From a virus, in the IMG/VR virus record IMGVR_UViG_3300027770_002896, positions 1 through 37,901 of that record: a DNA stretch of 37,901 nt; one strand, given 5' to 3'. Numbering within the stretch: the first letter of the stretch is position 1; every line of letters starts with the position of its first letter. The translations under genes were made by a program, and so were the position numbers. The notes below the pieces were generated by a model. That model was not told the origin of the DNA and did no database searches. It saw only the letters and a list, made by a program, of their open reading frames with translations. Below, one piece after another: positions 25,783 to 36,973 of the stretch.

Positions 25783-26406
25783 ATGGGAGCATTACGAGAG
25801 CACGATCTTTCTCCTCTTATAGAGGAGTTTGGTCTTGAGTATTATTTTGAAACTGGAACTGGTAAAGGAGAGTGTCTTTTACATGCTCTTAAGTATCCTT
25901 TCAAAAATTATTATACGGTTGATATTGATGAAGAATTAGTAGAACAAGTTTATAAGAATATTAATAGTTATGCAAAAGATATTAATCTATTAGTTGGAAA
26001 ATCCATAGACATTCTTGGAGAGTATGTTCCACAAATTCCTCAAGAGTCTCCAGTATTATTTTTTCTTGACGCACATTTTCCTGGTGCAGATTTTCACAAA
26101 TGTACATATGAAGAATCTATTCGTGAACATATGAAAGATGCATTTCCCTTGGAAGAAGAAGTTCAAATCATTTCTAAAAATAGAGATGTCTCCAAAGATG
26201 TTTTTATCATTGATGATTTCATTCTTTATGAAGAAGGTGATTATGATTGTATTAATTACAATTGTGTTTGGGAATATGGTTGGTTGCAGGAAGAATTGGA
26301 TTTAAAAACAAATTCACAATTTCTTTACGATATGTTTGAAAAAACACATGATTTGACAAAAGATTTAAGAAGTCAAGGATATTTAATCATCACTCCTAAA
26401 AAATAA
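25783..26406 (+). CDS. SAM-dependent methyltransferase-like protein
   Basis: The 207-residue protein has YYFETGTGKGECLLHAL (motif I), YYTVDIDEELVEQVYKN (motif II) and VLFFLDAHFPGADFH (motif IV region), so a class I methyltransferase fold. The later FIIDDFILYEEGDYD is unusual. The substrate is unknown; the cluster suggests glycan methylation. Its stop overlaps the dehydrogenase start (TAATG). Confidence 0.7.
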   Translation: MGALREHDLSPLIEEFGLEYYFETGTGKGECLLHALKYPFKNYYTVDIDEELVEQVYKNINSYAKDINLLVGKSIDILGEYVPQIPQESPVLFFLDAHFPGADFHKCTYEESIREHMKDAFPLEEEVQIISKNRDVSKDVFIIDDFILYEEGDYDCINYNCVWEYGWLQEELDLKTNSQFLYDMFEKTHDLTKDLRSQGYLIITPKK

Positions 26407-27425
26407 TGAAAGCAGTAGTATTAGAAGCAATTGATGCACCTCTTGTTGTGCGTGATGTTGAATTGACCGAGCTCAAAGTTGGTCAAGTTCTTGTAAAAGT
26501 TTTGGTGAGTGGCCTTTGTGGCGCCCAAATTCATGAAATCAAAGGTTACAAGGGAAATGCTAAGTTCCTTCCACATTTGATGGGACACGAAGGTTGTGGA
26601 GTCGTTGAGGCAGTTGGAGATGGGGTAACGACTGTTAAGGTGGGTGATAAGGTTGTTATGCACTGGAGACTTGGGACTGGAATTGAGGCACCATTTCCTT
26701 CATACATTTTGAATGGAAAAACTATGAGTAGTGGTAAAGTAACTACCCTGAGTGAGTATTCAATCGTATCTGAAAATAGATTAACCAATGTTCCTCAAGA
26801 TACTCCTCCAGAACTTTGTGCTATTCTTGGTTGTGCTCTTACAACTGCGATGGGAATTATTGATAATGAAGTTGATCTAAAATTTGGTGAGAGTGTTGCT
26901 GTTATTGGTTGTGGTGGAGTTGGGTTAAATTTGATTCAAGCATCTGCCATGAAGAGTGCTTGTCCTATTATTGCAGTGGATAATAACCCCACTAAAGAAA
27001 GAATGTGTCTTGATATTGGTGCAAGTAAGTTTTATACTTCCATCGATCAAATTGAAGAAAAGGTTGATATTGTGATTGATACTACTGGTATTCCAGAAGT
27101 TATTAGTCAAGGTATTTCTATCCTATCAAATACTGGTAGAATGATCCTTGTAGGACAACCTGCTCCAGGAAAATTTGTTGAAGTAATGAATGCTGTTAAT
27201 CTTTTTAATGGGATTGGGCAAAGCATTAAAGCAACTCAGGGTGGTAAAACAAATCCTCAGGAAGACATCCCTAGGTATATTAGACTACATAAGGAAGGAC
27301 TATTAGATGTAAGTAAATTAATAACTCATACATTTACATTGGACCAAATTAATGAAGCATTTGACTTGCTTAAATCTGGAAATGCTGGTAGAATTATGAT
27401 TAAAATTGTAGAGGAACTTGTATGA
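26406..27425 (+). CDS. Zinc-type alcohol dehydrogenase (MDR family)
   Basis: The 339-residue protein matches medium-chain dehydrogenases. Catalytic Zn ligands lie in GLCGAQIHE and LMGHEGCGVVE. The NAD-binding GxGGVG loop is in VIGCGGVGLNLIQ. The four-Cys structural zinc loop usual near residues 95-115 is absent; the segment reads WRLGTGIEAPFPSY. It shares an ATGA overlap with the thiamine-diphosphate enzyme gene that follows, so the two probably act in sequence on one small molecule. Substrate unknown; a sugar-derived alcohol or aldehyde is suggested by the setting. Confidence 0.85.
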   Translation: MKAVVLEAIDAPLVVRDVELTELKVGQVLVKVLVSGLCGAQIHEIKGYKGNAKFLPHLMGHEGCGVVEAVGDGVTTVKVGDKVVMHWRLGTGIEAPFPSYILNGKTMSSGKVTTLSEYSIVSENRLTNVPQDTPPELCAILGCALTTAMGIIDNEVDLKFGESVAVIGCGGVGLNLIQASAMKSACPIIAVDNNPTKERMCLDIGASKFYTSIDQIEEKVDIVIDTTGIPEVISQGISILSNTGRMILVGQPAPGKFVEVMNAVNLFNGIGQSIKATQGGKTNPQEDIPRYIRLHKEGLLDVSKLITHTFTLDQINEAFDLLKSGNAGRIMIKIVEELV

Positions 27426-28615
27426 GAAAGAAGTGGACTAAGGAAGAACTAATTTCTTTTGAAGATCATATTGGTGATCTATATCTTGATAATAAACTTC
27501 CATTTCTTTTTCATTTATCTGGTGGAAATGAAGATCAATTGATTGAAATTTTTGAAAATATTAATGAAGGTGATTATGTAATCTCAAATCATCGTAATCA
27601 TTATCATGCCCTTCTTCATGGAGTTCCTCCTGAAGATGTGGAGGATAGAATTTTGAATGGAAGAAGCATGTTTATCTATGATAGACAACGTAATTTTTTT
27701 CTTTCTGCCATTATTGGTGGTACTCCAGCAATTGCTGCCGGTATTGCTTGGGCTTTAAAACGTAAAGGTTCTGCCCAGAAAGTATGGTGTTTTGTTGGTG
27801 ATGGTACTGAAGATAATGGGCATCTTGCAGAAGCAATCAGATATGTTGATGGTTGGGATCTTCCTTGCACTTTTGTAATAGAAAGTAATGATAGGTCTTG
27901 CGAGGCAAGTAATTCTGACCGTTGGGGCAAGACTGCCCATCCTGAATGGAACTCTCCTTCAGTTATTCGGTATAAGTACACTTGCACATATCCTCACTGC
28001 CGTAAACCTGGCATGATTGATCTTTCCAAGGCAGTTAAGAAAACTGATGAGGAATATTTCCCCCTTCTTCAAGAGTTTGTATATCCAGAAATTGAGCAAA
28101 CTGATATTTCATACAAAGATGCTATTGCTCAGTCAATGACAGAACTTGGCGAATTGGGTGCCATTTTTATTGGTTATAATGTTGCATATGGCGATGCAAT
28201 GGGAACTCTTAAAGGTGTGCCTAAAGAACAGAAACTTGAAACCCCTGTTGCCGAAAATCTTATGGCAGGTCTTGCTATTGGAATGTCTTTTGAGGGGTTC
28301 ATTCCTGTTCTGTACTATGAACGTCATGATTTTATGTTAGTTGCTGCAGATGCCATTATCAATCACATTGATAAAATTGAACGTATTTCTCATGGCGAAT
28401 TTAAAGTTCCTGTGATTATTCGTGCTGTGACTGCTGATGCTGGACCTTTCTATTCTGGAATTACACATTCTCAGGACTTTACTGATATGTTTAGATCTGC
28501 AGTGACTTTCCCTGTGATTGATCCTGTAACGGGAATGGATGTACTTAAAGCAGTTAGAGGTGCTAAAGAAAGTGGCAGACCTATGATGCTAATTGAAAGA
28601 AAATCAAGGTATTAA
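27422..28615 (+). CDS. Fused alpha/beta thiamine-diphosphate enzyme (E1/transketolase-like)
   Basis: The 397-residue protein combines a PP-binding half and a Pyr-binding half. The ThDP motif is GDG at 126-128 with ND at 156-157 (VGDGTEDNGHL ... FVIESND). The second half has ETPVAENLMAGLAIGMSFEG, with the likely activating Glu, and a YERHDFML stretch like E1-beta. The third, C-terminal transketolase-type domain is missing, so it is shorter than transketolase or DXS. It resembles fused pyruvate-dehydrogenase E1 subunits. Paired with the upstream dehydrogenase, it may make or extend an unusual sugar by two-carbon transfer (inference). Confidence 0.8.
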   Translation: MRKKWTKEELISFEDHIGDLYLDNKLPFLFHLSGGNEDQLIEIFENINEGDYVISNHRNHYHALLHGVPPEDVEDRILNGRSMFIYDRQRNFFLSAIIGGTPAIAAGIAWALKRKGSAQKVWCFVGDGTEDNGHLAEAIRYVDGWDLPCTFVIESNDRSCEASNSDRWGKTAHPEWNSPSVIRYKYTCTYPHCRKPGMIDLSKAVKKTDEEYFPLLQEFVYPEIEQTDISYKDAIAQSMTELGELGAIFIGYNVAYGDAMGTLKGVPKEQKLETPVAENLMAGLAIGMSFEGFIPVLYYERHDFMLVAADAIINHIDKIERISHGEFKVPVIIRAVTADAGPFYSGITHSQDFTDMFRSAVTFPVIDPVTGMDVLKAVRGAKESGRPMMLIERKSRY

Positions 28616-28616
28616 T

Positions 28617-29429
28617 ATGAAGACATACCTCTCAGTTGGAATTGGTGATATGGTATTTTTGGATTCTATTCTTACTTTAGAAGAAAAGGCAACAATAAGT
28701 GAAATTTATTGGGCGTGTAGATTTGGGAAATGTTTAATTCCTTTAATCGAAAATAATCCAGATTATCCAAATCTTGTTGCTCAACATACTATTCCCGATG
28801 AAGTCGGCCAACAAGCAATGGCATCTCTTGACCCTATTGCTATTCCTTTCTGGCATTTTAGACCAGACTTTCCTAGAAATTTTCAAGTTGGATTGGATTT
28901 ATTTGGGATTAAAGAAAATCAAGTTCAGTCAGTAGATGCTGCTGGATGTTTTACTGATAGAAATAGAAAATTTGTTGGATCTTCTTTTTTGAAAAATGCA
29001 AAACAACTTGACATAGGAAATTATATTCTTTTTCATTATCCAACATCTACTAGACCAAGATCTGATATTGCATCAATTTCTCCTGAAGATTGGAATTTTG
29101 TTGAGAAATTATCAAAAGAAAAAAATCTAAAAGTAATTATAATTTCAGATGTTCCTATTGATATTTCTCTCTCAAATTATGAGCATTTGATTAATCCAGA
29201 TATTTGTTATATTGTTGATTTGGTTTCTTCATGTACATATTATGCTGGATGCGATTCTTTTTGTGCCCATCTTGCATCAAAAACATTACCTAAAGAAAAT
29301 ATTTTTATTAAATCGCACGAATCAAATATCACTGAAAAACTTTTGAATACTACTTTTGCACGAGCATTTCTTCCATATACTCCAGAAGATGTTGCTAGTT
29401 TCTATAAAACATATATTGGATATCCATGA
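28617..29429 (+). CDS. GT9-like glycosyltransferase
   Basis: The 270-residue protein begins MKTYLSVGIGDMVFLDSIL, the GxGD loop of heptosyltransferase-like proteins. The second half has YILFHYPTSTRPRSDIASI (a phosphate-contact strand like GxxxxxK) and CTYYAGCDSFCAHLASK, equivalent to the GPDSGPxHLA donor site of GT9. This is the best GT9 match of the three GT9-like genes. The start is ATG 28617, one base after the previous stop. It overlaps the kinase gene by ATGA. It sits directly before the heptose-activation block, so it is a candidate heptosyltransferase. Confidence 0.65.
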   Translation: MKTYLSVGIGDMVFLDSILTLEEKATISEIYWACRFGKCLIPLIENNPDYPNLVAQHTIPDEVGQQAMASLDPIAIPFWHFRPDFPRNFQVGLDLFGIKENQVQSVDAAGCFTDRNRKFVGSSFLKNAKQLDIGNYILFHYPTSTRPRSDIASISPEDWNFVEKLSKEKNLKVIIISDVPIDISLSNYEHLINPDICYIVDLVSSCTYYAGCDSFCAHLASKTLPKENIFIKSHESNITEKLLNTTFARAFLPYTPEDVASFYKTYIGYP

Positions 29430-30154
29430 ATAGTATTTTAGTTATTGGTGAAAGTTCTAGGGATGTATTTGTTTATTGTAATGCGTTTAGGTTATGTCCG
29501 GATGTCCCTGTGCCAGTCTTAAACATTAAGGACCAATCTGAAAATCCTGGAATGGCAAAGAACGTTCATAGGAATATTCAAAGTCTTATAAAAGATTGTC
29601 AAATCCTAACTAATTCAAATTGGTACGATGTGACTAAGACTAGATATGTGCATGAAAACAGTAATCATATGTTTTTTCGAGTTGACACTCTTCATGAAAT
29701 ATCAAGAATAGATATGAGTAAGATTGACTATGATTATGAAATTATAGTTATCTCTGATTATGATAAGGGATTTTTAAAAAAAGAAGATATAGAAGAAATA
29801 TGCTCCAAACATCCAAATGTTTTTATCGATACAAAAAAGATTTTAGGTTCTTGGGCAGATAAAGCGAGATTCATTAAAATTAATGACTTTGAGTATAAGA
29901 ATTCTGAAAAGTATATTACAGATGATCTTGCCAAAAAAATTATCCATACGATGGGATCTGAGGGGTGCGAATATAGAGGAGTTAATTATTCAGTTGATAA
30001 GGTTGAAGTTAAAGATGTTTCTGGAGCAGGTGATACTTTTATGGCAGGATTAGTTGTAAAATATTTTGAAACAAAGAATATAGAAGAGAGTATAAAATTT
30101 GCAAATAAGTGTGCTTCTAAAGTTGTTAGACAAAAGGGAGTAACTGTGTTATAA
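29426..30154 (+). CDS. HldE kinase-domain-like PfkB sugar kinase
   Basis: The 242-residue protein resembles the HldE/RfaE N-terminal kinase domain, which phosphorylates heptose-7-phosphate at C1. Seen: ILVIGESSRDVFVY, a DVPVPVL stretch matching EAPVPV of HldE, GMAKNVHRNI replacing GGAANVAMNI, FIDTKK, and DVSGAGDTFMAGL with the catalytic base Asp in GAGDTF. It is shorter than the usual 315 residues, with the lid and some loops missing. A matching nucleotidyltransferase lies at 31692 and an HldD-like epimerase at 30907. It may instead act on a related sugar phosphate. Confidence 0.8.
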   Translation: MNSILVIGESSRDVFVYCNAFRLCPDVPVPVLNIKDQSENPGMAKNVHRNIQSLIKDCQILTNSNWYDVTKTRYVHENSNHMFFRVDTLHEISRIDMSKIDYDYEIIVISDYDKGFLKKEDIEEICSKHPNVFIDTKKILGSWADKARFIKINDFEYKNSEKYITDDLAKKIIHTMGSEGCEYRGVNYSVDKVEVKDVSGAGDTFMAGLVVKYFETKNIEESIKFANKCASKVVRQKGVTVL

Positions 30155-30184
30155 TATATAAGCAAACATTTGTATAAGAATAAA

Positions 30185-30922
30185 ATGTTAAAATGCAATA
30201 AAACATTAATCTACGAACAAGTTGAACCAATAACACTTGGAAATTCTCAAAAAGGTCAAGATTCTTTGATTCAATATACCTTTAATTCTGTAGTTGGCAC
30301 TACTGATAAGTATTATGTTGAATTTGGGGCTATGGATGGATATCAATTATCCAATACTTCATATCTTAGACAACACCAAGGATGGAATGGGTTGCTATTG
30401 GAAGGAAATCCCAATGCTTTTAGTGATAATTTAGATATTAATTTGCATATTAAGCAAATTACAAAAGATAATATATGTGATTTATTTAAAGAATTTAATG
30501 TTCCTATCGAACATGATTTTTTATGTATTGATATGGATGGTGTTGATTATTGGATTATGAAATCAATACTTGAAGGTAACTATCGTCCTAGAGTTATCAT
30601 GATAGAAACTAATGTAAGATTTGAACCCGAAGAAAGTTTTGTTTTGAAATATGATGAAAATTGGGTTTGGAATGGAATTGATTGGTACGGAGCGTCTCCA
30701 TATGCATTTAAAAAATTATTTAACGAGCATGATTATGTTCCAGTTTGGATACATATTGATGATATGATTGTTGTAAGAAGAGATGTTTTGGAACAAAATG
30801 GATATGGGGAACCAGATTGGGAATATGTATATCCAAAATCTAATGTTCCACTCTATAGTGATCATAGAAGTAGCGATCGTTTTGTATCTGAATTAGACTT
30901 AAATACGTGGCAAAAAATTTAA
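30185..30922 (+). CDS. FkbM-like methyltransferase
   Basis: The 245-residue protein has YYVEFGAMDGYQLSNTSYL (SAM motif I), GLLLEGNPNAF (motif II) and HDFLCIDMDGVDYWIMKSIL, then VIMIETN, a pattern of FkbM-type and related O-methyltransferases that act on glycans. The start is taken as ATG 30185; an upstream TTG at 30170 is possible. It splits the kinase from the epimerase, inside the heptose block. Its end overlaps the HldD-like gene by 16 bases. Confidence 0.75.
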   Translation: MLKCNKTLIYEQVEPITLGNSQKGQDSLIQYTFNSVVGTTDKYYVEFGAMDGYQLSNTSYLRQHQGWNGLLLEGNPNAFSDNLDINLHIKQITKDNICDLFKEFNVPIEHDFLCIDMDGVDYWIMKSILEGNYRPRVIMIETNVRFEPEESFVLKYDENWVWNGIDWYGASPYAFKKLFNEHDYVPVWIHIDDMIVVRRDVLEQNGYGEPDWEYVYPKSNVPLYSDHRSSDRFVSELDLNTWQKI

Positions 30923-31695
30923 TTATTTTAACTGGTGCAAATGGATTCATTGGAAAAAACTTTAAATCCAAATTAGAAAATGTTATTGGATTGGATCAAC
31001 ATAATTGCTGGCAATTTTTTAAGGAGTTTAAAGAATGGGATAAAGTCTCTCTGATTCTTCATCAGGGAGCAATCTCATCTACAATTGAAACTGACATTAA
31101 TAAAATTCATAAATGGAATGTTGACTATACATTAGTGTTATTTGAATTTGCAATTAAGTATGGTATACCTGTAAAGTATGCGTCATCAGCTTCTGTCTAT
31201 GGCAATCAACAAGGTATTTTTAATCCTTTAAATTACTATGCAATTTCCAAACTTCAAATAGATTATTGGGTTACTGGTAATATTGATAAATTTTCACATA
31301 TTCAAGGATTTAGATATTTTAATGTTTATGGTGATGGTGAGCAAAATAAAGGAGACCAAGCAAGTCCTGTAAGTAAGTTCACTAAACAAATCAAAGAAAC
31401 TGGAACACTAAATCTATTTGAAGGTTCTGATAAGTTTCTTAGAGATTTTATCTGGGTCGATGATTTGGTTAAAGTTGTTCTTAACAATGAGAAACCATCT
31501 GGAATTTATGATTTGGGCACTAGCAATCCTGTAAGTTTTCAGCATGTTGCAGAATGTGTTGCAAGCAAGTATAATGGAAGCATTAATTATGTTCCATTCC
31601 CACAGCATCTAGTAGGAAAGTATCAGGACTATACTTGTGCTAAATCTGAATGGTTGGATTATCAGTTCAAGAGTGTAAAAGAATTTTTATCATGA
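30907..31695 (+). CDS. HldD-like ADP-heptose 6-epimerase
   Basis: The 262-residue epimerase follows E. coli HldD in order: GANGFIG (10-16), LHQGAISSTIETD (HldD: HEGACSSTTEWD), SSASVYG, YYAISK with Tyr111/Lys115, RYFNVYGDGEQNKGDQAS with the second catalytic Lys, LFEGSDKFLRDFIWVDD and VPFPQHLVGKYQ. HldD converts ADP-D-glycero-D-manno-heptose to the L-glycero form. The start is GTG 30907, the usual NAD strand beginning AKNLIILTG. It overlaps the nucleotidyltransferase by ATGA. It is about 45 residues shorter than E. coli HldD. Confidence 0.87.
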   Translation: MAKNLIILTGANGFIGKNFKSKLENVIGLDQHNCWQFFKEFKEWDKVSLILHQGAISSTIETDINKIHKWNVDYTLVLFEFAIKYGIPVKYASSASVYGNQQGIFNPLNYYAISKLQIDYWVTGNIDKFSHIQGFRYFNVYGDGEQNKGDQASPVSKFTKQIKETGTLNLFEGSDKFLRDFIWVDDLVKVVLNNEKPSGIYDLGTSNPVSFQHVAECVASKYNGSINYVPFPQHLVGKYQDYTCAKSEWLDYQFKSVKEFLS

Positions 31696-32093
31696 AAACT
31701 ATTTTTGTAAATGGATGCTTTGATATTGTTCATCCTGGGCATATTGAATTATTTAAAATTGCAAAATCTCTTGGTGATCGTTTAATTGTTGCTATAGATA
31801 CTGACGAAAAAATTAAAATTGATAAGGGAAACTCTAGACCTATTAATACACTATCTTATAGGAAAGTGATGTTAGAATCAATCAGATATATTGACGTTGT
31901 TCTTATTTTCAATACCGATCTTGAACTTGAGAGTTTGATAGAATTGTATAGACCAGATATTTTAGTTAAGGGTAGTGATTGGAGAAATGGTAAAATAGTC
32001 GGTGGCCAGTTTGCAAAAGAAGTAAGATTCTTTGATAGGTATGGTGAATATTCTACTACTAAATTTTTAGAGCAATTGCAAAATCAATCATGA
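31692..32093 (+). CDS. HldE nucleotidyltransferase-domain-like protein
   Basis: The 133-residue protein corresponds to the separate RfaE2/HldE C-terminal domain, which adenylylates heptose-1-phosphate. It has VNGCFDIVHPGHIELF with the HxGH site, and VAIDTDEKIK. The RPDILVKGSDW segment aligns with VLVKGGDY of HldE, and a later EYSTTKFLEQL aligns with CSTTNII. The size is right for a stand-alone domain. It uses an ATGA overlap at both ends. Whether it uses ATP or CTP cannot be told from sequence. Confidence 0.85.
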   Translation: MKTIFVNGCFDIVHPGHIELFKIAKSLGDRLIVAIDTDEKIKIDKGNSRPINTLSYRKVMLESIRYIDVVLIFNTDLELESLIELYRPDILVKGSDWRNGKIVGGQFAKEVRFFDRYGEYSTTKFLEQLQNQS

Positions 32094-32416
32094 AAAAATA
32101 TGTTGTTGATATTGATGGAACTATATGTACATCAGTAACTAGTGGTGAATATTCTGATGCTCTTCCAATTTATGATAGAATAGAGAAAATAAATAAGTTA
32201 TATGATAAAGGAAACTACATCATATACTTAACTGCCAGAGGAATGGGTCGGTATAGTAATAATGCTGACCTGGCAAAAGCAAGATTTTATGAAATTACAA
32301 AACTTCAATTAAAATTGTGGAAATGTAAATATCATGAATTATTTTTAGGAAAACCCTCTGGTGATTTTTACATAGATGATAAGGGGATTAATTCAGATGA
32401 ATTCTTTGCATATTAA
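32090..32416 (+). CDS. Small HAD-superfamily phosphatase
   Basis: The 108-residue HAD protein has motif I VDIDGTICTS, motif II IYLTARG, a candidate motif III Lys in GKPSGDF, and motif IV YIDDKG. It resembles small capsule/LPS-cluster HAD proteins. In the ADP-heptose pathway the phosphatase step (GmhB) is also done by a HAD enzyme of about 190 residues, so this could be its counterpart (inference). It is coupled by ATGA to the nucleotidyltransferase. Confidence 0.75.
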   Translation: MKKYVVDIDGTICTSVTSGEYSDALPIYDRIEKINKLYDKGNYIIYLTARGMGRYSNNADLAKARFYEITKLQLKLWKCKYHELFLGKPSGDFYIDDKGINSDEFFAY

Positions 32417-32753
32417 TTTTGTTCCAAAAGGATGGGGATTTGAAAAGTGGATTGTTAACACAGAAGAATACTGTGGAAAACTTCTTTACTTTGTAAAAAG
32501 TAAAAAGTGTTCTTGGCATTATCATAAACTAAAAGATGAAACTTTTTATATTCAAAGTGGAAAAATACTTCTTAAGTATTCTGATGATGATGAGATAGTA
32601 GATGCCAATGAAATTATTTTAAATAAGGGAGATAATTTTCATATTTATAGAGGATTGAGACATCAGATGTTTGCTCTAGAAGATACTGAACTTTTTGAAT
32701 TTTCTACACAGCATTTTGATGAAGATAGTCATAGATTAGAAAGAGGTGATTGA
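32397..32753 (+). CDS. Cupin-like protein (sugar isomerase or sugar-binding type)
   Basis: The 118-residue protein has a cupin core with metal-ligand pattern WHYHKLKDETFYIQSGKILLKY, then GDNFHIYRGLRHQM with the last His. Related small cupins occur as phosphomannose-isomerase- or lyxose-isomerase-like domains in LPS clusters. No GmhA-type sedoheptulose-7-phosphate isomerase is visible, so it might replace that step, but this is speculative. The start at ATG 32397 overlaps the HAD gene by 20 bases. It abuts the first GT11 gene. Confidence 0.68.
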   Translation: MNSLHINFVPKGWGFEKWIVNTEEYCGKLLYFVKSKKCSWHYHKLKDETFYIQSGKILLKYSDDDEIVDANEIILNKGDNFHIYRGLRHQMFALEDTELFEFSTQHFDEDSHRLERGD

Positions 32754-33602
32754 ATGACAATTTCTTATAATAGATTGGGATCTAATGGTCGTTTGGGAAA
32801 CCAGATGTTTCAGTATGCAGGATTGCGTGGCATTGCTTCCAATCGTAATTTTGAATGGTTAATTCCAAGACCAGATAATTATGGCGATTCAAATTATGGA
32901 TTATTTGATTGTTTTGAAATGTCTTCTGTTAAGGAAGAAAACTTTGGTCAATTAAATGGTCAAAATATTGCGACAGGACAATTTCATTTTAGTCAAGAGT
33001 TTTTTGATAATTGTCCAGACAATATTAATCTTCATGATTATTTTCAGACAGAAAAATATTTTAAAAATATTGAAGATGTAATACGAAATGATTTCTCCTT
33101 TAAAAAAGAAATTGTAAAATCTTGTTTGGAAATATTGAATGAACTAGTAGATCCAATTTTTATTCATATTCGTCGTGGAGATTATGTAAATCAGCCAGAC
33201 AATCACCCAGTTTGTTCCACTTCATATTATGAAAATTCATTAAATCATTTTAAAGACACCTCATCTGTATTAATTTTTTCTGATGACCCAGAATGGTGTA
33301 AATCACAAGAATTATTTTCTGATGATAGATTTTTAATTTCAGAATTTAATTTAAAATATAATCAAACATCAGATACTAATGATGGAAGAGTCAAATCTTT
33401 AATTCCATATTATGATTTGTGTCTGATGAGTATGTGTCAAGGTGGAATTATTGCAAATAGTTCTATGAGTTGGTGGGGAGCATGGATGATTCAAAACCCA
33501 ACTCAACCAATTGTTGCACCGAATCCTTGGTTTGGAAAAAATTATAATCATTATGACATGAGTGATTTGATACCAGAAAGGTGGGTGATTCAAAATGCTT
33601 GA
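32754..33602 (+). CDS. GT11 family glycosyltransferase (alpha-1,2-fucosyltransferase-like)
   Basis: The 282-residue protein shows the GT11 signatures: SNGRLGNQMFQYAGLRGIA (GLGNQMFQYA type), FIHIRRGDYVNQ, LIFSDDPEWCK, and the C-terminal NSSMSWWGAWM. GT11 enzymes transfer L-fucose or a related L-sugar from the GDP form in alpha-1,2 linkage. An AGAGG ribosome site lies upstream. A second GT11 gene lies at 34398. The N-terminus is cytoplasmic with no membrane segment, so it probably acts in the host cytoplasm. Confidence 0.9.
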   Translation: MTISYNRLGSNGRLGNQMFQYAGLRGIASNRNFEWLIPRPDNYGDSNYGLFDCFEMSSVKEENFGQLNGQNIATGQFHFSQEFFDNCPDNINLHDYFQTEKYFKNIEDVIRNDFSFKKEIVKSCLEILNELVDPIFIHIRRGDYVNQPDNHPVCSTSYYENSLNHFKDTSSVLIFSDDPEWCKSQELFSDDRFLISEFNLKYNQTSDTNDGRVKSLIPYYDLCLMSMCQGGIIANSSMSWWGAWMIQNPTQPIVAPNPWFGKNYNHYDMSDLIPERWVIQNA

Positions 33603-34401
33603 CCTTACATTTTTAATTCCTACTCGAATTGAAACTGAAGATCGTTTAAGGAATATTATTTCTTCTGTTTCTTATCTTCTTAAACATATTCCCGCAAAAG
33701 TAATTGTTAAAGAAGTATCTAATTATCCTACTTTTCAATTTAGAGCAATTCCAGAAATTAAAAAGTATGTTGATACCCCAAATTTAATTTATTTGTATGA
33801 AGAAAGTTCAGAGACATGGTTTTGCAAAAGTAAAGTATTGAATGATCTAATTGTTGCATCAAACACAAAAGTCGTAGCAAATTATGATGCGGATACAATT
33901 TTACCCGTTCAATCATATTTTGATGCCTATCAATTGATTAATAAAAATCATGCAGATGTAGTTTATCCTTATCAGTGTGGTGTTTATCAATGGAAAGCAG
34001 AATATAATTCGGACATTTATAATGAATTCATTTTAAATCTGGACACAAGAATATTAGATAAAAATAAAACACTATATAATTCAACAATTGGATGGAGTCA
34101 ATTTATAAACCGTCAAGTTTATATTGACTCCTTTATGATGAATGAAAACTTTATTTCGTGGGGATGTGAAGATGATGAATTTTATTATCGTATGAGTGTC
34201 CTTGGCAATCGTATTGCAAGAATTGATAATTATGCGTATCATTTAGAGCATTCGAGAACCCCAAACTCTTGGTTTAATAATCCAAATTTTAATAATAACT
34301 ATCAGTTATGGAATCAAATCAAGACATTTGACAAAAACCAATTAATACAGTATTATGAGAATCTGGACTATCTAAAAAAACGCAGACAAGAATTAGTATG
34401 A
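33595..34401 (+). CDS. GT2/GT7C-like glycosyltransferase
   Basis: The 268-residue protein has an N-terminal GT-A nucleotide-binding strand (LTFLIPTRIE), VVANYDADTILP with the DxD motif, and FISWGCEDDEFYYRMSVLGNRI, a match to the galactosyltransferase C-terminal WGxEDDE motif. It may add galactose or N-acetylhexosamine from a UDP donor. It overlaps the GT11 gene before it by 8 bases and the GT11 gene after it by ATGA, so it probably works in the same glycan pathway. Confidence 0.8.
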   Translation: MLDLTFLIPTRIETEDRLRNIISSVSYLLKHIPAKVIVKEVSNYPTFQFRAIPEIKKYVDTPNLIYLYEESSETWFCKSKVLNDLIVASNTKVVANYDADTILPVQSYFDAYQLINKNHADVVYPYQCGVYQWKAEYNSDIYNEFILNLDTRILDKNKTLYNSTIGWSQFINRQVYIDSFMMNENFISWGCEDDEFYYRMSVLGNRIARIDNYAYHLEHSRTPNSWFNNPNFNNNYQLWNQIKTFDKNQLIQYYENLDYLKKRRQELV

Positions 34402-35216
34402 TAGGATTTAATGCTCTTGGTAGAATGGGGCGCCTGGCAAACCAAATGTTTCAGTATGCATCTCTCAAAGGTATTGCTAAAAATGTAGGCGCAGATATTA
34501 TTGTTCCTTACTATAAAGATGCAATAGATGATGGAATTGGTAATAAACTACGCTCTGAATTGTTTGATAGTTTTAATCTCAATGTGAATACTGGTCTACT
34601 TAATAATGGAAATGCTCCCGTAGTTCAAGAAAGATTTTTTCATTTTGATGAAGATCTTTTCAAACTCTGTCCAGACCATGTGTCTCTTCATGGATTCTTT
34701 CAATCTGAAAAATATTTCAAACATATTGAGACAGATATTCGTGAAGATTTTATCTTTAAAGATGAAATTTTAAATCCATGTGAGGAGATGATTTCCTCAG
34801 TTGAAAATCCAATTGCACTTCATATTCGCCGCACAGATTATATTGCTAATAGTGAAAATCATTTTAATTTATCTCTTGAATATTATGCGGATGCTTTAAA
34901 ATATTTTGATGATGATCGTAATGTGATTGTTTTTTCTGATGACCCAAAATGGTGTAATGATCAAACATTATTTTCCACTGATCGATTTATGATTTCAGAA
35001 AATATTGATAATAGAGTTGATCTTTGTTTAATGTCTCTTTGCAATGATTTTATTATTGCAAACTCTACATTTTCTTGGTGGGGTGCCTGGTTGTCTTCAA
35101 ATAAAAATAAAAAAGTAATATCACCGAATCAATGGTTTGGTGAAATTGGTTATACTAAAAATCACGATACTAAAGATTTAATTCCCAATGAATGGACAAG
35201 AATTGGTGATGGATAA
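34398..35216 (+). CDS. GT11 family glycosyltransferase, second copy
   Basis: The 272-residue protein shares the GT11 set with the gene at 32754: MGRLANQMFQYASLKGIA, ALHIRRTDYIAN, VIFSDDPKWCN, NSTFSWWGAWL. The two copies are clearly homologous but diverged through most of their length, so they are older paralogues or separately acquired and may differ in acceptor. Its stop lies just after the next start (ATG 35209). Confidence 0.9.
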   Translation: MIGFNALGRMGRLANQMFQYASLKGIAKNVGADIIVPYYKDAIDDGIGNKLRSELFDSFNLNVNTGLLNNGNAPVVQERFFHFDEDLFKLCPDHVSLHGFFQSEKYFKHIETDIREDFIFKDEILNPCEEMISSVENPIALHIRRTDYIANSENHFNLSLEYYADALKYFDDDRNVIVFSDDPKWCNDQTLFSTDRFMISENIDNRVDLCLMSLCNDFIIANSTFSWWGAWLSSNKNKKVISPNQWFGEIGYTKNHDTKDLIPNEWTRIGDG

Positions 35217-36012
35217 GAATAAATCCATCTATAAGTTAGCAAATATCCCCCATATTTACTGGTTGAATCTTGATTCTGATACTGACAGACGCCAGTATAT
35301 GGAGCAACAGTTTGAGTATTGGGAGATTAAAAACCATACAAGAATTTCTGGTTATGATGGAAGAGTTGATGATGTTTCATTATATATTAAGGGGAGAATT
35401 CCTGACAATGTAACTCAAAATGAACTTGGATGTTGCATGTCACATCTCAAAGCAATTAAACATTTTTATGAAAATACTAAGGATGAATATTGTTTAATTG
35501 TAGAGGATGATGTAAGTTTTGATCTTGTAAAGTATTGGAATTTTACTTGGAATGATTTCTTTTCTCATGCTCCATACGATTGGGATTGTCTACAATTAAC
35601 TACAATCTGCACTGGTGATATTCATGTCAAACTCCACATTCGTTTTATTAATGATTTTTCTGCAGCAATTTATTTGATTACTCGTCATCATGCGGCTAAA
35701 GTTATAAAAAATCATGTGCGAAAAGAAAAATATAAACTTGATAATGGAGTAAAACCAAGAGCAGTTTCTGAAGATGTTATTTTGGAGTCTGGAAAAACTT
35801 ACACTATTCCTTTGTTTCTTTATAATTTGAATATGGAATCTACCATTCATCCAGAGCATGTTTCAATATTCCATAAAGCTCCTCATGATGCCCTATCTCA
35901 ATTCTGGGAGCAGAATGGAGCAGGTATTGACATCAAGGATTATATGAACTATGATCCATACCTGGGTCGGATAACCGAAAATTCTGCCGCACAACCCCCA
36001 CCAGAGAGTTGA
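35209..36012 (+). CDS. GT25 family glycosyltransferase
   Basis: The 267-residue protein matches LPS-type family 25: IPHIYWLNLDSDTDRRQYM (LxRxxxR-type start), then NELGCCMSHLKAIKHF (GxxxSH), LIVEDDVSFD with the metal-binding ED, and YDWDCLQL. These enzymes usually add galactose from UDP-galactose. The start at ATG 35209 overlaps the GT11 stop. The protein ends in a low-complexity tail (AAQPPPES), and its stop TGA lies inside the -35 box of the next promoter. Confidence 0.87.
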   Translation: MDKNKSIYKLANIPHIYWLNLDSDTDRRQYMEQQFEYWEIKNHTRISGYDGRVDDVSLYIKGRIPDNVTQNELGCCMSHLKAIKHFYENTKDEYCLIVEDDVSFDLVKYWNFTWNDFFSHAPYDWDCLQLTTICTGDIHVKLHIRFINDFSAAIYLITRHHAAKVIKNHVRKEKYKLDNGVKPRAVSEDVILESGKTYTIPLFLYNLNMESTIHPEHVSIFHKAPHDALSQFWEQNGAGIDIKDYMNYDPYLGRITENSAAQPPPES

Positions 36013-36091: not shown

Positions 36092-36973
36092 ATGGTTATT
36101 CGTTCATTTCTTGCTGGTGCCGTTGTATTAACTGCCGCACCAGTATTTGCTGCTCCAGCATCCTTCTCTGATGTACAACCCACTGACTGGGCATATCAGG
36201 CAATTCAAAATCTTAATTCACGATATGGATGTCTTGTTGGTTATCCTAACGGCACTCTTAAGCCTGCTGCTGATGCAACTCGCAGTGAAGTTATTGCTCT
36301 GACAAATCATTGTCTGGATAATATCACTCAATTCTATACACAAGCAGATGCCAAACTTGCTGCTGCTCTACGTGCTCAGATTGGTGCTGTAAGTAATCGT
36401 GTAACTAAACTTGAAGTTGCTGCTGTAACTGCGACACAACGTCGTAATCTGGGTGTTGGCAACTATGGTGGTATTGCTTTTGCTGGTAATGCTGCTAACT
36501 ATCCAGGTGTAACACCATTGGGTAATCGTGTATATGAGTCTGGTGTAACACTTCAAGGTCGTCTAAGGGCACTTGATTTGGGTAATCAGTATGCTGTATC
36601 TGCTCGTCCTTATGTAACACTAACCTCTACTCCTAACTATGTAAGTGGTGGTGTATTTGGTGGTGGTCTTGCTACTCTTGATATTCCTCTCTCACGAAGG
36701 ACTCTTGCTGATGGAACTAAAGTATCTGCTGCTAACCTCTATGTTGGTGCTGGCGGTCAGGTGGGTGGCAATCAGAGTGCTGGTGTCGGTGTAGTTGGTG
36801 CCGAAGTATCAGTAGCAAACAACGTTGTTCTATTTGCTGATGCGAAGATTCCTTTCTCTAACACTGGTGCCGAAACCTTTGGTTCTACCAGAGTTGGTCG
36901 TGCTACTTATAACTATGGCAGTGGTCAAGGTTACAATGTAACTGGAACTGTTGGTGTAGGTATCAAGTTCTGA
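36092..36973 (+). CDS. SLH-domain porin-like outer-membrane protein
   Basis: The 293-residue protein has a clear signal peptide (about 1-20, ending PVFA). An SLH domain follows (SFSDVQPTDWAYQAIQNL ... GCLVGYPNGTLKPAADATR, about 25-78), the layout of cyanobacterial SomA-type porins that anchor to peptidoglycan. A short helical linker (about 80-112) leads to a Gly/Val/Thr-rich region with a final Phe (GVGIKF), typical of outer-membrane barrels. The barrel part is about 180 residues against several hundred in cyanobacterial porins. By eye the wording is more codon-regular than the neighbours and looks host-derived. A phage-encoded envelope protein of this type is unexpected. Confidence 0.8.
   Translation: MVIRSFLAGAVVLTAAPVFAAPASFSDVQPTDWAYQAIQNLNSRYGCLVGYPNGTLKPAADATRSEVIALTNHCLDNITQFYTQADAKLAAALRAQIGAVSNRVTKLEVAAVTATQRRNLGVGNYGGIAFAGNAANYPGVTPLGNRVYESGVTLQGRLRALDLGNQYAVSARPYVTLTSTPNYVSGGVFGGGLATLDIPLSRRTLADGTKVSAANLYVGAGGQVGGNQSAGVGVVGAEVSVANNVVLFADAKIPFSNTGAETFGSTRVGRATYNYGSGQGYNVTGTVGVGIKF

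Follow-up and report, generated by a model that had tools for sequence, protein, structure and literature searches.

The window analysed here, the whole of a 37,901-base IMG/VR virus record (IMGVR_UViG_3300027770_002896), is a fragment of a T4-like cyanophage, as its nrdA/nrdB region, which resembles that of cyanomyoviruses, indicates. It carries an island of sugar genes, within which an earlier note on the same DNA had described five genes as a heptose-activation block: a kinase, an epimerase, a nucleotidyltransferase, a HAD phosphatase and a cupin. We found open frames on the plus strand for all five at the places claimed, together spanning positions 29426-32753. Their description as nearly all overlapping is right as to the overlaps, which are real, but the kinase and the epimerase are separated by an open reading frame (ORF) that had not been listed (30170..30922, TTG start). 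This ORF has no Pfam match; eight other related ORFs occur in the loci that we compared, and phage S-SM2 has a related ORF. Here we consider whether the block serves heptose activation and whether the cupin takes the place of the isomerase GmhA.

The kinase (29426..30154, 242 aa) is a compact, PfkB-type protein that resembles the heptose-7-phosphate kinases HldA and HldE domain I. It matches Pfam PfkB at 64.8 bits, and its best NCBIfam match is TIGR02198, the heptose-7-phosphate kinase model (99.8 bits, 1.6e-28); the score lies below the curated full-length cut-off of 345 bits, with 242 aa set against a model of 315 positions. A profile of 35 phage relatives placed Burkholderia HldA (4e84) first in the PDB, at 1.4e-32 over residues 54-348 of 352, and the runner-up, at 1.8e-12, matched over the C-terminal part only. 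The sequence contains the catalytic GAGD together with an R-x-x-P-x-x-PVPV stretch resembling that of HldA. Across the 35 kinase sequences, residues G200, A201, G202 and D203 are invariant and mean column identity is 39%. The protein thus appears HldA-like, short of a certified member of HldA/HldE-I.

The epimerase (30907..31695, GTG start, 262 aa) matches the HldD model TIGR02197 at 204.3 bits (curated cut-off, 274.6 bits, not reached) and aligns with E. coli HldD (1eq2) at 9e-36. The residues opposite Ser116, Tyr140 and Lys178 of HldD, which we take to be its catalytic residues, are identical, and the protein is consistent with an HldD-like nucleoside diphosphate (NDP)-heptose 6-epimerase. 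The nucleotidyltransferase (31692..32093, 133 aa), in which the HxGH motif reads HPGH, best matches TIGR02199, the model for HldE domain II (HldE-C), at 119 bits (curated cut-off, 181.5, not reached) as against 74.6 bits for TagD, its next functional family; it resembles a heptose-1-phosphate nucleotidyltransferase and would make an NDP-heptose, probably ADP-heptose. The small HAD phosphatase (32090..32416) carries the DxD, K and DD motifs and belongs with EcbF/BcbF (TIGR01689, 52.7 bits; PDB 1xpj, 1.6e-12). An identification of this protein as GmhB was ruled out, EcbF/BcbF being its best NCBIfam family; the proposed small HAD phosphatase is therefore present but is not GmhB-like. It probably removes the 7-phosphate, the role of GmhB.

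Kinase, epimerase, nucleotidyltransferase and cupin all pass general Pfam cut-offs, and the heptose-specific NCBIfam cut-offs are reached by none of the window proteins, for which reason we call each protein "like" its family and not a certified member. The profile check that the earlier note had called for returned the HldE-N, HldE-C and HldD families, each below its curated cut-off, but not GmhB.

The fifth gene encodes the cupin (32397..32753), a putative sedoheptulose-7-phosphate isomerase. The ORF tool began this frame at 32376; we chose the ATG at 32397, which gives the usual length in relatives. The protein matches Pfam Cupin_2 (PF07883) at 32.9 bits and, weakly, WbuC in NCBIfam. Mean column identity among 34 members is 72%, above that of the kinase, and K28, H41, H43, K46, E48, H89 and E101 are invariant, with D108 being Asp or Glu. 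The AlphaFold model of the cupin has a pLDDT of 96.0. In VIA-align, the D-lyxose isomerases 7nzo, 7nzp, 7nzq and 2y0o matched it at Z 14.2-14.5 with 25-26% identity, and the Thermococcus phosphomannose isomerases 7zvy and 7zvm at Z 14.7 with 24%; among the 50 rows listed these isomerases exceed all others in identity except a cellulose-oxidising cupin (two rows, 24%). In a profile search of the PDB with 16 more diverse rows, D-lyxose isomerase 2y0o came second (2.5e-4) and L-ribose isomerase 5avp third (3.2e-4), behind a cupin of unknown function; with 34 rows, isomerases came third and fourth (0.0024 and 0.0034). The D-lyxose isomerase family PF07385 matches 33 of the 34 members at E up to 1 (best 8.7e-4), and the window cupin scores 12.9 bits against its gathering cut-off of 20.8, which it does not reach. 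A search of 57 genomes for D-lyxose isomerases that could be compared directly with the cupin profile found none.

According to the available sections of PMC8378251, the residues of Thermofilum D-lyxose isomerase that contact sugar and metal are K62, H75, H77, K86, E88, H143, E156 and D163, and mutating the equivalents of K86, E156 and D163 abolished activity. In a HMMER alignment to 2y0o, the cupin residues K28, H41, H43, K46, E48, H89, E101 and D108 stand opposite these active-site residues, the transfer from 2y0o to Thermofilum numbering having been made in this analysis. Two spacings are equal (K28-H41 and K62-H75, 13; E101-D108 and E156-D163, 7) and the others differ by insertions. The cupin thus appears to keep the active-site residues of cupin aldose-ketose isomerases (K, H, H, K, E, H, E, D). 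The D-lyxose and phosphomannose isomerases share with it the fold and have identical metal ligands and substrate residues opposite (7nzo, 2y0o, 7zvy, 7zvm); unlike the D-lyxose isomerases, the phage protein is shorter and only about 25% identical, and remains below the PF07385 cut-off. Mannose/fructose and D-glycero-D-manno-heptose/sedoheptulose have the same configuration at C1-C4, and isomerase chemistry would therefore fit the cupin.

The GmhA model TIGR00441 (SIS domain) has no match in the window record, as the absence of a visible GmhA had suggested. It matches one of 11 named cupin-bearing phage records, SynMITS9220M01, where the GmhA-like SIS protein lies in a second operon with a GHMP kinase, a HAD-nucleotidyltransferase fusion and an epimerase. 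The viral sets used from here on were not sampled at random but hold the 80 most similar of 525 (cupin), at least 582, 129 and 112 confirmed stretches, and their ORF-based counts miss genes lying under a longer overlapping ORF (a HAD gene in L032, a cupin gene in L122). TIGR00441 matches two of 80 cupin-bearing viral records, one marginally (7.8e-4), and gave four matches in 73 of the 80 PfkB-selected records; the other seven lie on contigs already searched.

We found that the viral cassettes are of three kinds: a PfkB kinase with the cupin, an HddA-like kinase with the cupin, and another GHMP kinase (GHMP2) with a GmhA-like SIS protein. A GHMP kinase query selects for neither isomerase; the loci found with it had SIS within 4 kb in 76/80 cases and the cupin in 11/80. 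Cassettes with PfkB and a nucleotidyltransferase but no GHMP2 contained the cupin in 32 of 42 cases and SIS in none of the 42. Conversely, GHMP2 cassettes lacking PfkB and nucleotidyltransferase contained SIS in 68 of 71 cases and the cupin in two, in both of which the kinase lies 241 or 516 bases from the contig end. A Fisher test of cupin by cassette type gave 4e-17, a value that is no true probability because the loci are related. The pattern persisted when the kinases were thinned at 80% identity (PfkB with nucleotidyltransferase: cupin 26/33, SIS 0/33; GHMP2: cupin 2/29, SIS 28/29). Similarly, in all seven HddA-like cassettes, one of them that of phage Bellamy itself, the cupin lies between HddA and HddC and SIS is absent (0/7). 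The Bellamy kinase has HddA as its best match (7.2e-83, 279 bits; cut-off 600) and its partner transferase has HddC (4.2e-17, 63 bits; cut-off 300).

At the level of whole loci, SIS and cupin do not exclude each other: 11/80 SIS loci have a cupin within 4 kb, and eight of these also have PfkB and nucleotidyltransferase. Per kinase cassette the exclusion holds, and both proteins fill the same slot: in three loci with PfkB and GHMP2 in tandem (L104, L137, L158), every kinase block has its own cupin or SIS. The HldE-type and HddA-type routes have only the isomerase and phosphatase steps in common upstream. Because the two routes share these steps, and most loci have a HAD for the phosphatase step, the cupin suggests itself as the candidate isomerase. 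The speculation that it replaces GmhA draws support from these cassette counts and from its predicted active-site residues, and stands as a proposal. As a separate observation, one GHMP kinase and SIS cassette encodes a HAD phosphatase and an HldE-C-like nucleotidyltransferase in one protein (L010:19006-19755).

The neighbours of the cupin define the rest of the cassette. IMG/VR holds 525 stretches that encode the cupin; within 4 kb of it, in the best 80 loci, we found a nucleotidyltransferase in 75, a HAD in 72, PfkB in 71 and SIS in none. Of 82 cupin ORFs, 70 have a HAD gene that ends no more than 120 bases from their start. HldD is near the cupin in only 16/80 loci at 120 bits or more, and in 23/80 at 55 bits. 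From these neighbour counts, the recurrent core is kinase, nucleotidyltransferase, HAD and cupin, with HldD optional. The same genes are grouped in P-TIM68, in another order, and in S-SM2, with other genes inserted; since they are together again in these phages, their grouping is not chance.

A possible heptosyltransferase gene adjoins the kinase. The ORF at 28617..29429 (ATG at 28617; longest frame from the TTG at 28593) overlaps the kinase start. Pfam gave no match for it, even with E values up to 1 admitted, and a profile of eight sequences found one unrelated PDB match (E 2) and no sequence support for glycosyltransferase family 9 (GT9). Its AlphaFold model, made from the eight sequences (pLDDT 74), had only GT9 enzymes in the top six VIA-align rows: WaaC (four entries), a Veillonella GT9 and WaaF (Z 10.5-11.6, 211-228 residues, 3.7-4.9 A). 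Near-tied with the lower of these were UDP-GlcNAc 2-epimerase (10.4) and NDH-PSI chains (10.2 and 10.1), and the heptosyltransferase TibC had Z 9.6. Foldseek ranked TibC first (3.0e-4), a 2-epimerase second and WaaC third (8.6e-4). By its model the ORF is closest to the GT9 ADP-heptose heptosyltransferases; because the margin over non-GT9 folds is small, we regard it only as a candidate heptosyltransferase.

Several findings weigh against the reading of the cupin as an isomerase that replaces GmhA. Its nearest folds are the CapF epimerase in Foldseek and Pac13 in VIA-align, with many cupins tied; because 830 chains match the fold at E 0.001 or better and CapF and Pac13 lead, the fold alone does not decide function. 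CapF also has the same H-x-H-x-x-K-x-E stretch. In sequence the cupin matches isomerases weakly (best value 2.5e-4), Pfam Cupin_1 and JmjC_2 beat Lyx_isomer on members of the family, the E. coli sugar isomerase 3kmh reaches Z 13.6 with 18% identity, and the C-terminal part of the alignment to 2y0o (E101, D108) has low posterior confidence. Among the 42 loci with PfkB and nucleotidyltransferase, ten lack a cupin by ORF calls; in seven of these (L138, L144, L145, L147, L170, L172, L184) tblastn found no cupin and the record, which may be a fragment, had no GmhA. Such a cupin-less pathway may lean on a host GmhA, and a literature search for GmhA in picocyanobacterial hosts found nothing. The CapF resemblance and the cupin-less loci favour an alternative in which NDP-heptose is still the product of the cassette but the cupin serves as an epimerase or modifies the sugar at a later stage, heptose 7-phosphate being supplied by a host or other GmhA. 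The tandem loci bear on it in both directions, since cupin and SIS there stand in one operon, yet each of the kinase blocks retains its own cupin or SIS. We consider this alternative unlikely: no 4,6-dehydratase is fixed in the core, while CapF acts on a UDP-linked 4-keto sugar, and the cupin goes with kinases of the PfkB/HldE type as well as of the HddA/HddC type, for which the isomer and the phosphatase are the common requirements upstream.

Further findings weigh against the cassette reading. No GmhB model matched the HAD at E 0.01 in NCBIfam. In 30/80 PfkB-selected loci no nucleotidyltransferase, HAD, cupin or SIS lies within 4 kb, and in L120, L124 and L117 PfkB occurs with only an alcohol dehydrogenase (ADH) and an E1-like enzyme; because of such loci, the kinase may serve another route. 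One could suppose that the block activates another sugar or polyol phosphate (a pentose, hexose or cyclitol, perhaps via E1/ADH), the likeness to HldE and HldD reflecting ancestry and not substrate. The heptose-specific scores, all under curated full-length cut-offs, the scarcity of HldD near the cupin and the closeness of TagD to the nucleotidyltransferase would fit this explanation, which we nevertheless judge quite improbable. HldA is the nearest solved relative of the kinase by 20 orders of magnitude, the epimerase retains the HldD catalytic residues, sister cassettes contain HddA-like, HddC-like or GmhA-like parts, and the GT9-like ORF adjoins the kinase. The HldA match, the HldD residues, the HddA/HddC-like sister cassettes and the GT9-like model of the neighbour support heptose activation as originally suggested. 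The observation of the earlier note is confirmed and its interpretation partly supported.

We return to the reading of the block as a phage cassette for NDP-heptose activation and transfer, with the cupin as a sedoheptulose-7-phosphate isomerase replacing GmhA, to which we would assign a probability of roughly 0.6. Gene presence, family resemblances, conserved residues and cassette architecture were observed directly; for the substrates, the nucleotide, the order of steps, the cupin chemistry and the acceptor (a glycan on the host surface, a protein of the virion or some small molecule), we infer the following. The metal-dependent cupin would convert host sedoheptulose 7-phosphate to D-glycero-D-manno-heptose 7-phosphate, the GmhA step. 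The PfkB kinase would put on the 1-phosphate and the EcbF/BcbF-type HAD would take off the 7-phosphate, whereupon the HldE-C-like enzyme would form NDP-D-glycero-heptose, probably the ADP form. The HldD-like enzyme would turn the D-glycero into the L-glycero form. Finally, the GT9-like protein would transfer the heptose, and the neighbouring GT11/GT25 enzymes would extend the glycan.

Like the bacterial ADP-heptose pathway, the window has in one gene run an HldA/HldE-I-like kinase, an HldE-II-like nucleotidyltransferase, an HldD-like epimerase, a phosphatase and a GT9-like ORF. Unlike it, the window has the cupin in place of GmhA, for which there is no match, and an EcbF/BcbF-type phosphatase; the HldE functions are divided between two small proteins whose genes are not adjacent, the kinase is compact, and the whole is phage-borne. 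Bellamy and six viral loci resemble instead the GDP-D-glycero-alpha-D-manno-heptose pathway (GmhA, HddA, GmhB, HddC) in having HddA-like and HddC-like genes around the same cupin. The window differs from that pathway in its PfkB/HldE-type kinase and transferase, and Bellamy in having no match to the GmhA model.

A broader version of the proposal, which we rate somewhat short of an even chance, is that the cupin is a new kind of sedoheptulose-7-phosphate isomerase, a non-homologous GmhA replacement common to two heptose-activation routes of different chemistry. It would be widespread among cyanophages and related viral contigs, and the bacterial and archaeal genomes that were scanned would almost lack close forms of it. 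Together with the GT9-like transferase, it would enable a cyanophage to attach heptose to a glycan, or to tail proteins of its own, in a host with heptose-free lipopolysaccharide (LPS). To our knowledge, the first committed step of heptose biosynthesis is so far known as GmhA; if the proposal is true, this step has a second, unrelated enzyme. In addition, the public labels of the cupin and HAD in phage records would need correcting, and the reason for large sugar clusters in lytic cyanophages would become testable. The matter gains weight because the LPS of this host type is reported to be heptose-free, so that a heptose in virions or in infected Synechococcus would be foreign to the host and easily detected. 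As the earlier note had stated, some marine cyanobacterial LPS is described as lacking heptose: the accessible text of one review states this for marine Synechococcus WH8102 and CC9311 (PMC4515613), and that of another for cyanobacterial LPS generally (PMC4390846). The former also reports, in the same accessible text, heptoses in some other cyanobacterial LPS.

The window shares its gene families with cyanophage LPS and capsule clusters, as far as the available portions of PMC7824862 and PMC7378029 describe them. In the portion of PMC7824862 available, cyanophage clusters have PfkB sugar kinases, cupin-fold sugar isomerases, HIGH nucleotidyltransferases and sugar-dephosphorylating HADs, and a carbamoyltransferase/halogenase cluster of S-SSM6a is read as capsule decoration or secondary metabolite. 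That portion, unlike our analysis, ties the cupin to no step, and the main text within it does not contain "heptose". Heptose genes are named in SynMITS9220M01 in the consulted part of PMC7378029, and rfaE in pelagimyophages in that of PMC7029224. Clusters of PfkB kinase, cupin "sugar isomerase" and nucleotidyltransferase in cyanophages are thus known; our literature searches found neither the heptose cassette logic nor the specific replacement of GmhA. They likewise found no account of the cassette types, the cupin/SIS exchange or the GT9-like gene, and no publication combining cupin, sedoheptulose, isomerase and heptose.

Existing labels in the records seem wrong. Names in phrog_1238, phrog_7851 and GenBank call the HAD "phosphoheptose isomerase" and the cupin "cysteine dioxygenase" or "putative nucleotidyltransferase". 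We rejected the name "phosphoheptose isomerase" as evidence for GmhA; its bearer in the window is the HAD (phrog_1238), and of 11 phage records only SynMITS9220M01 has a real SIS protein.

Among 50,697 phage records, the kinase occurs in 31 and the cupin in 35, several of these records being duplicates or isolates of one phage. All carriers are phages of Synechococcus or Prochlorococcus, uncultured marine viruses and one record named "Cyanophage". In six of 11 phage regions (S-SM2, P-TIM68, Sf-CH5, S-T4, Bellamy and SynMITS9220M01) the block lies within glycosyltransferase islands. In the other five (P-SSM2, S-CAM3, S-SSM7, Sf-FS3 and S-CAM1) it lies beside annotated tail-fibre and/or neck genes and carbamoyltransferases, in P-SSM2, S-SSM7 and Sf-FS3 also with 2OG-Fe(II) oxygenases. 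This tail-fibre/neck and carbamoyltransferase setting (L003, L004, L005, L006 and L011) hints at virion protein glycosylation. Bellamy also encodes a protein in which a nucleotidyltransferase domain is followed by an RpiB-type sugar-phosphate isomerase (L009:3925-5079), with related stretches in S-SM2 and other loci.

A bacterial origin of the cupin was also considered. A scan of bacterial and archaeal genomes with two short patterns, which detect close relatives only, yielded 11 loci with cupin relatives, all titled MAG (metagenome-assembled genome). Seven carry PfkB, nucleotidyltransferase and cupin, one PfkB and cupin, and three the cupin alone; because seven of the 11 have this gene set, some of these loci may be phage contigs. 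The GmhA model matched some contig in five of the seven MAG genomes searched, which cover eight of the 11 loci.

The remainder of the sugar island comprises an FkbM methyltransferase and a glycosyltransferase run, both identified by Pfam; the run (32754..36012, plus strand) consists of GT11 (32754), GT7C-like (33595), GT11 (34398) and GT25 (35188). Upstream lie two associated genes on the plus strand, a zinc-dependent ADH-like gene (26406..27425; PF08240, PF00107) and a compact fused PDH-E1-like thiamine-pyrophosphate enzyme (27422..28615; PF00676 and PF02779; phrog_34187). The ADH gene sits 5' of E1 and the kinase in several viral loci. The trio of ADH, the compact PDH-E1-like enzyme and PfkB (window 26406-28615; L117, L120 and L124) is also seen without a nearby nucleotidyltransferase, HAD or cupin; one guess is that it adds a two-carbon unit to a sugar. 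Directly 3' of the island, the frame at 36092-36973 resembles, by eye, an SLH-domain outer-membrane protein and has a GC content of 0.43, as against about 0.30.

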